From NCBI GenBank assembly GCA_036496605.1, contig DASXKV010000032.1:186001-250000 (forward strand): DNA of 64,000 nucleotides, written 5' to 3'. Under the pieces are notes generated by a model. The model saw nothing but the letters and a program-made list of their open reading frames with translations, made no database searches and had not been told where the DNA came from. This document shows, in pieces, positions 11,420 to 13,048 of the stretch. Each line of letters starts with the position of its first letter. The first letter of the stretch is position 1. The position numbers were made by a program, and so were the translations under genes. This DNA comes from Gemmatimonadaceae bacterium. GTDB taxonomy: Bacteria; Gemmatimonadota; Gemmatimonadetes; Gemmatimonadales; Gemmatimonadaceae.

Positions 11420-13048
11420 ATGCTCGAGCACTTTCCCGCGACACTCGCACTCATCGGTATCGTCGTTCTCGTGTCGTCCCTCCTTTCCGGGTGGGTCGAT
11501 CGAACTGGCTTGCCGCAAGTCGCGATCTTCCTCCTCCTCGGTCTGATCCTCGGACCGTTCGGGCTCGGGCTGCTCGACCTCAATCTGCATTCTCCGTCGC
11601 TGCAGGTGATCGCGACGCTCGCGCTCGTTCTCGTCCTCTTCAGCGACGCCATCGGCGTCGACGTCAGCGAGGCGCGCTCGAACAGGAGACTCGCGTTGTT
11701 CGTGCTCGGGCCTGGGACGTTGCTTCCCGCCATTCTGATTTCGGCGGGGGCCTGGTTCCTCCTGGACCTCTCTCTTCCGGCCGCACTCATTCTCGGCGCT
11801 GCGCTCGCGTCGACCGATCCGGTGCTGTTACGCGCGCTCGTGCGGCGCCCAGAGCTTCCCGCCGACGCGCGCATTGCTCTTCGCCTCGAGAGTGGTATGA
11901 ACGATGTCGTGCTCCTTCCGATCGTCGTGCTCTCCATTCTCGCGCTCCAGGTGCGTTCGGGCGCAGCGTCGGCGGACATTGGACGCCGCTTGCTCGGACT
12001 GTTCCTGCTCGGGCCAGCGCTCGGTGCGTTGATCGGCTGGGCCGCTATCACGCTGCTCGAGCAGATTCGTCGGCGGTTCGGCGTTAGGCGCGACTACGAG
12101 TCGCTCTACGCACTGGGCGTCGCTTTCACCGCTTTCGCCGCAGCCGAGGGAGCCGGCGGCAGCGGATTTCTCGCCGCGTTCACGGCCGGCCTCGTGATCG
12201 CGTCCCTCGATGTCGAGCTCTGCGACTGCTTCTTCGACTACGGCGAAGCGAGCGCGGAGATGTTCCTGCTCCTCACCTTCGTCGCCTTCGGCGCGTCGCT
12301 CATCTGGATTGGACTTTCGGTCATCGATCTACGGTCACTGCTCTTCGCCGTCTTTGCGCTTGTTGTGCGGACCGCAGTGCTGTTGCCGGTGCTCCGCCAC
12401 GCCGGCGTGACGAACGCCACGCGAAGACTCATTGCCTGGTTCGGACCGCGCGGCTTGAGCACGCTGCTGCTCGTGCTGCTCGCAGTATTCGCTGGCGTTC
12501 CGGGAGCAGAGCGGCTGTTCGCGATTGCGTGCCTCGTCGTGCTGCTCTCCGTTGCGTTGCATGGCGGCGGCATCGTTCTCTTGCTCCGCCGGCGCGAATT
12601 TTCCGTGCCCGCCGAGAATCAGAGTAGTGCTCGGCGCGCTCCGCTGCCGACAATCGAGCTGCGCGCGCCGCCATCGGCCTTTCTCGGACCGACGCCAGAG
12701 CGCATAACGATTGGCGAGTTGCGGGAACTGTGGGCTCGGCACGCGCCCGTTGTCTTGATCGACGGTCGCTCGGATCGGACCTATCGGAACGACGGGCTGC
12801 GCGCTCGCGGCGCACTGCGCGTCCCGCCTGACGACGCGGTGCGCGCTGCGCGCGCACTCCGCCTCGAGCAGCACGCAACGCTGGTCGTCTACTGTGCCTG
12901 AGTGGACGAGGCGACGAGCGCCCGTGTGGCGCGCGAGCTTCGCGATGCCGGCTGGCCGCAGTCGCGCGCGCTGGTCGGGGGATGGCGTGCCTGGCTGGAG
13001 GCCGGCCTTCCCGTTGAGCCTAGAGAAGACGTGGTACCGTCGAGTTGA
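11420..13048 (+). CDS. Na+/H+ antiporter-rhodanese fusion with in-frame TGA (candidate selenoprotein)
   Basis: The first 410 or so residues form a CPA-type cation:proton antiporter with about 12 membrane helices, including ASTDPVLLRAL and RLESGMNDV. A cytoplasmic rhodanese-like domain follows (VLIDGRSDRTYRN). The frame meets TGA at 12899-12901, right after VVYCA. In the same frame, translation would continue VDEATSARVARELRDAG ... LVGGWRAWLEAGLP to a TGA at 13046-13048, which is exactly the missing C-terminal half of a rhodanese domain. The TGA falls where homologues have the second Cys of a YCxCPxEAT-like loop. Readthrough as selenocysteine (542 residues in total), a pseudogene stop, or re-initiation at GTG 12902 are the options. 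The downstream part keeps coding character and ends 46 bases before the convergent gene. Confidence 0.75.
12915..12935 (+). promoter_or_regulatory. Possible bacterial SECIS hairpin after the in-frame TGA
   Basis: GCGCC (12918-12922) pairs with GGCGC (12928-12932) around the loop CGTGT. After one A-G mismatch, two more pairs (C12915-G12935, G12916-C12934) extend the stem. The loop begins 22 bases after the TGA and has G as its second base. This fits the general bSECIS description (apical loop 16-37 bases after UGA, G among the first two loop bases). GC-rich DNA makes chance hairpins common, so this is supportive only. Confidence 0.4.

Follow-up and report, generated by a model that had tools for sequence, protein, structure and literature searches.

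A CPA1-type antiporter fused to a predicted Cys-x-Sec rhodanese: a candidate selenoprotein family of mostly soil bacteria

Introduction

Rhodanese-like domains with a C-x-U motif are known from prokaryotic selenoproteins, where they are listed as form 3 of the domain and correspond to model NF041203 (rhodanese_LYCAU, ‘rhodanese-related (seleno)protein’; PMC13188914, Table 1). The same catalogue of 119 prokaryotic selenoprotein families, dated May 2026, names several transporter proteins or subunits predicted to contain selenocysteine (Sec), namely YeeE/YedE, SO_0444 Cu/Zn efflux, SaoB/SaoP/SaoX and E1-E2 cation ATPase (PMC13188914). Cation/proton antiporters and rhodanese fusions are both missing from this group. 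The words antiporter and exchanger are absent from the catalogue (PMC13188914), no antiporter occurred among the NCBIfam selenoprotein matches, and in a full-text literature collection that covers few subscription journals we found neither an antiporter selenoprotein nor a described antiporter-rhodanese fusion. The original prediction, which knew of no described antiporter selenoprotein, agrees with both the catalogue and the NCBIfam release searched.

Among solved antiporter folds, the protein described here is closest to PaNhaP (4cz8; E = 3e-11, TM-score 0.73 normalized by target), with which it shares the invariant ND motif, and MjNhaP1 (4czb), a CPA1 antiporter, is also among the best matches. 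The best antiporter model in NCBIfam is the NhaP2-like potassium/proton antiporter PRK05326 (E = 3e-41), although all matches to it stay far under their cut-offs (at best 141.6 vs. 355 bits). KefC (8by2, 8bxg) also gives a high fold match and invites a functional comparison, being an antiporter whose cytosolic regulatory domain responds to thiol metabolites. It is a CPA2 member in which sensing is the task of an RCK domain binding glutathione and its adducts; unlike the present protein, it has neither a rhodanese nor Sec.

The locus lies in a 64,000-nt stretch of Gemmatimonadaceae DNA, the whole of which is referred to as the window. Compared with NhaP and PRK05326 antiporters, its product adds a Cys-Asp-Cys (CDC) motif and a C-terminal rhodanese with a predicted Sec. 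The rhodanese shares fold and C-x-U motif with NF041203 (81.4 bits, E = 4e-23) but misses the 115-bit cut-off, as do seven tested relatives (68–99 bits), and it forms the tail of an antiporter of about 390 residues, whereas NF041203 is a free-standing model of 126 positions. The motif being that of CxU rhodaneses already on record, no novelty lies in the Sec-rhodanese half alone; what appears to be new is that it is joined to a CPA1 antiporter and accompanied by a conserved CDC motif. The locus adds a selenoprotein family missing from the catalogue and from the NCBIfam release searched, one that spans four or more phyla of predominantly soil bacteria.

Results

Gene architecture and domains

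The gene occupies positions 11420–13048 of the forward strand and is interrupted only once, by a TGA at 12899–12901 (residue 494). Read through this codon, it encodes 542 residues including Sec494, and its homologues are collinear over the full length. Taken as a stop, the TGA would end the gene at residue 493, with loss of the second half of the putative sensor domain. The Na_H_Exchanger membrane domain (PF00999, E = 4e-41; residues 18–390, positions 11471–12589) is of the CPA1/NhaP type, as judged from this match, its ND motif (N161-D162) and its NhaP fold match to 4cz8. Since E157 and N161-D162 of CPA1 proteins are invariant in the alignment of fusion proteins, cation/proton transport has likely been retained. 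The rhodanese domain (PF00581, E = 1e-6; residues 436–527, positions 12725–13000) runs unbroken across the TGA, which bears out the original prediction that an in-frame TGA interrupts a rhodanese whose frame continues to 13048.

An AlphaFold2 model, built from 42 aligned family members with the TGA treated as a residue, reached a mean pLDDT of 88.8 and a pTM of 0.85. The rhodanese was modelled as a complete, high-confidence fold across the TGA position (pLDDT of about 89), and uncertainty was confined to the tail and to a presumably flexible linker (residues 399–415, positions 12614–12664; pLDDT below 50). In the active-site loop, which reads C492-A-U494, the invariant Cys492 (TGT, 12893–12895) falls at the rhodanese catalytic position of 6mxv, and the loop is therefore of the C-x-U type. 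The original prediction had placed the TGA at the second Cys of the YCxCPxEAT-like loop of related fused rhodaneses; the alternation of Cys and TGA was upheld (see below), and the motif itself was refined to the known CxU rhodanese type. Neither a search of the 64,000-nt window against Rfam at gathering thresholds nor a search of a plasmid collection gave a match.

Conservation of the TGA codon

Homologues were gathered from whole genomes of relatives and from 48 named loci. The latter were found by six peptide patterns. Residue 494 lies outside five of these, and the remaining one admits no codon but Cys at that site; the search was hence not biased toward TGA. Among the 61 distinct homologues spanning the site, 55 carried TGA, six a Cys codon (TGT or TGC), and none any other codon, as anticipated for Sec in place of a loop Cys. 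TGA forms occur in Gemmatimonadota, Chloroflexota, Acidobacteriota and Myxococcota, isolates included, and one lies on the complete chromosome of Ktedonosporobacter rubrisoli (NZ_CP035758.1). Cys forms were found in Nitrospirota (Manganitrophaceae), Armatimonadota and one Chloroflexota bin. In a maximum-likelihood tree, the Cys state requires three changes, and the Chloroflexota Cys form is nested within a TGA clade (support 100/99), a position that fits a Sec-to-Cys conversion.

Downstream of the TGA, amino-acid identity to the nearest named relative was 79% over 48 codons, compared to 81% upstream, and changes in these codons fell mostly on third positions (22, vs. 9 and 3 at the other two). 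By this measure, the 48 codons evolve as coding sequence. The combined pattern of TGA conservation and downstream coding constraint is far beyond chance.

A conserved hairpin downstream of the TGA

The original prediction had also noted a hairpin loop 22 bases downstream, within the range published for bacterial SECIS elements. This loop (CGTGT, 12923–12927) follows a 21-nt spacer from the UGA and is closed by a GCGCC/GGCGC stem pairing 12918–12922 with 12928–12932; the putative SECIS core hence spans 12918–12932. Its fit to the published model and its conservation by covariation were both confirmed, with the conserved part of the stem amounting to just 5 bp. A hairpin of this kind, with 5 bp, a G[G/U] loop and 21-nt spacing, was present in 55 of 55 TGA genes. 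From these 55 ungapped sequences of 54 nt each, RNAalifold retrieved a single helix (columns 20–24 with 30–34), in which 99.6% of 270 cells were paired. Double changes affected three of the five stem pairs (CG to UA, GC to AU and CG to UA; 11 cells altogether). None of 500 shuffles matched the observed pairing, number of changed cells or covariation score, and controls slid along the sequence paired at 20–69%. At these positions, the six Cys genes paired at 50%, no more than shuffles did, and the hairpin was absent.

A hairpin arising as a mere by-product of coding constraint was ruled out by frozen synonymous choice at three codons after the TGA: in all 55 TGA genes, the Ser at +6 was encoded by AGY (21 expected from codon use elsewhere in these genes), the third base at +7 was C (19 expected), and the Arg at +8 was encoded by CGG or CGT (22 expected).

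The bacterial SECIS model calls for a loop of 3–9 nt, a stem of 4–16 bp, a spacing of 16–37 nt, a minimum free energy of at most –7.5 kcal/mol, and a G at the first or second loop position, in most cases preceding a G or U (PMC13188914). With loops of CGTGT, CGGGT, CGTGC or CGGGC and a constrained minimum free energy of –9.3 kcal/mol or lower, all 55 TGA genes fall within these bounds for loop, stem, G, spacing and energy.

Selenocysteine machinery

The genes whose presence the original prediction had named as its first check, selA, selB, selD and that for tRNA-Sec (selC), are all encoded in the window’s own genome, with selB scoring over its cut-off and tRNA-Sec bearing the anticodon TCA. Together with an in-frame UGA that aligns with the Cys of homologues, this is the pattern characteristic of a bacterial selenoprotein. 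Of the 42 genomes reached via named loci, 32 of the 36 with a TGA form and none of the six with a Cys form yielded a strong tRNA-Sec; if relatedness is ignored, the six Cys genomes would all come to lie among the ten lacking one with a probability of C(10,6)/C(42,6), about 4e-5. At least part of selA was found in 32 of 36 TGA-form vs. one of six Cys-form genomes. Among the window’s relatives, 22 of 23 TGA-form genomes had a strong tRNA-Sec, the exception being a fragmented assembly (G176). Neither tRNA-Sec nor selA was detected in two TGA-form genomes, a metagenome bin (L080) and Scytonema tolypothrichoides VB-61278 (L093). The gene of the latter groups within Oscillochloridaceae (Chloroflexota), and its contig may be a contamination.

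Inspection of the own genome revealed two further in-frame TGA codons. The selD gene is itself a Sec gene (ARCAG-U-AAKLG) and adjoins that for tRNA-Sec (contig C9:6983-8093; L018, L009). A second rhodanese with an in-frame TGA (VVYCWNFT-U-PTSSRAARAL; L126:1710-1712, contig C4:34048-34368) is accompanied by a GCCGCC/GGCGGC hairpin whose loop starts with CGTG, and in its UxxS motif it agrees with form 1 of the known rhodanese selenoproteins (PMC13188914).

Decoding of the UGA

Taken together, the UGA at 12899–12901 is almost certainly decoded as Sec, with support about as strong as comparative genomics permits, and 11420–13048 is very probably a selenoprotein gene. The genome-search, alignment and folding checks proposed with the original prediction all spoke for it. 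SelB bound at the hairpin at 12918–12932 would deliver Sec-tRNA-Sec to the UGA at 12899, giving a single 542-residue product composed of a CPA1-type antiporter and a C-terminal, cytosolic rhodanese.

Translation past the UGA could also be achieved by reading it as another amino acid, such as Trp or Gly, through code reassignment or programmed read-through, and the downstream protein is clearly translated somehow. Yet Cys is the only sense alternative at the site, and tRNA-Sec with its TCA anticodon, selA, selB and the SECIS-like hairpin are all present. Moreover, these genomes use TGA as an ordinary terminator, this gene included (13046–13048); as the homologues end variously in TGA, TAG or TAA, TGA is not generally reassigned. 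We consider such a reading very improbable.

Less probable still, the TGA may be a plain stop that leaves a truncated antiporter, the downstream half being either a decaying remnant or restarted at an overlapping GTG. The original prediction had listed re-initiation of this kind, and TGAGTG does occur in the window. However, the codon following the TGA is highly variable among homologues (CCA, ACG, CAG, CCG, CGG, GTG, AAG or CAC), and a restart at TGAGTG is rejected on these grounds. TGA is, in addition, the only stop codon seen at the site and Cys its only alternative, the downstream half remains under coding constraint, and the hairpin downstream of the TGA covaries.

A sequencing error or recent nonsense mutation, likewise raised at the outset and owing its only support to the draft state of the assembly, has a negligible probability given that the TGA is shared with 54 other distinct sequences, including the complete K. 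rubrisoli chromosome and the two nearest relatives (79–81% identity). For practical purposes, the comparative data exclude stop-restart, nonsense mutation and sequencing error alike.

Discussion

What the Sec-rhodanese might do for the antiporter is suggested by the pattern of conserved thiols. In 42 aligned fusion proteins, exactly four Cys/Sec columns are invariant: 268 and 270 in the antiporter, and 492 and 494 in the rhodanese. Cys268-Asp269-Cys270 (12221–12229) was conserved in 42 of 42 proteins, a figure to be read with the caveat that LDVELCDC was one of the six search patterns, so that CDC conservation in the named loci was partly selected for; relatives’ loci not chosen by this pattern also have CDC. 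Six rhodanese-free antiporters (L050, L051 and four nearby paralogues) lack the motif, and a more distant rhodanese-free antiporter (L048) has CSC in its place. Positive charges occur in the antiporter loops 142–154, 216–226, 324–335 and 388–392, and the helix order in the model and the positive-inside rule place the CDC motif, like the C-terminus, on the predicted cytosolic side.

The simplest joint reading of these features is, as a hypothesis, a thiol/selenol relay or switch between the rhodanese and the antiporter. On encountering an oxidant, electrophile or sulfane-sulfur/persulfide species, the C-x-U pair would react to form a selenenylsulfide or persulfide; this state would be passed to the antiporter, probably via C268-D-C270 at the cytosolic face, and cation/H+ exchange would thus be gated by the thiol-redox state of the cell. 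Such gating would broadly parallel that of KefC, a K+/H+ antiporter gated by glutathione, but would use another sensor. We regard redox gating by the C-x-U rhodanese as a serious proposal to which we give slightly less than even credence, and put forward more tentatively the wider reading of a widespread selenium-gated antiporter family, in which a Cys-x-Sec rhodanese acting as redox/persulfide sensor signals to an invariant Cys-Asp-Cys membrane switch.

The main rival to a redox switch is a membrane-tethered enzyme, a reading we consider quite possible, if short of probable. Here, the Sec-rhodanese would be an independent thiosulfate/persulfide sulfurtransferase or reductase, merely anchored at the membrane or handling transported sulfur or selenium species, and no gating would take place. 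In keeping with this, the rhodanese has a full fold that retains its catalytic Cys, comparable CxU rhodaneses occur as free-standing proteins (NF041203), and in Candidatus Manganitrophus the antiporter and a Cys-rhodanese are seemingly encoded in separate, overlapping frames. Against it, several phyla share both the fusion and the CDC motif of the antiporter, a joint conservation suggesting that the halves act on one another, and the ion-site residues E157, N161 and D162 are all invariant, pointing to transport having been kept.

The link to a CPA1 antiporter suggests a place for selenium chemistry in the control of ion homeostasis; if the selenium-gated family is real, this would amount to selenium-based control of ion and pH balance. 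The Cys forms from Nitrospirota, Armatimonadota and one Chloroflexota represent natural variants that offer ready comparisons, and the isolates Ktedonosporobacter rubrisoli and Dictyobacter aurantiacus make the selenoprotein claim testable.

As to genomic context, neither the window nor the regions flanking seven further loci revealed a conserved operon partner that would point to a pathway. In one genus group (g38; L104, L106, L107 and L112), a second CPA1 antiporter is encoded near the Sec antiporter, 27–30% identical and with neither CDC motif nor rhodanese match, and at L057, one of the named loci, an ORF of 387 aa stops 5 bases before the start of the Sec antiporter. Two relatives depart from the common architecture. 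On the complete Candidatus Manganitrophus chromosome, the two different overlapping frames of antiporter and Cys-form rhodanese (L090:4150-4576) reflect either a gene split or a frameshift. The homologue L045 (genome G063) has kept CDC, its match stops at query residue 464 and no rhodanese end was found; the frame beyond enters an unrelated, by eye oxidase-like coding sequence, as would result from truncation or rearrangement of the copy or from a join made in assembly.
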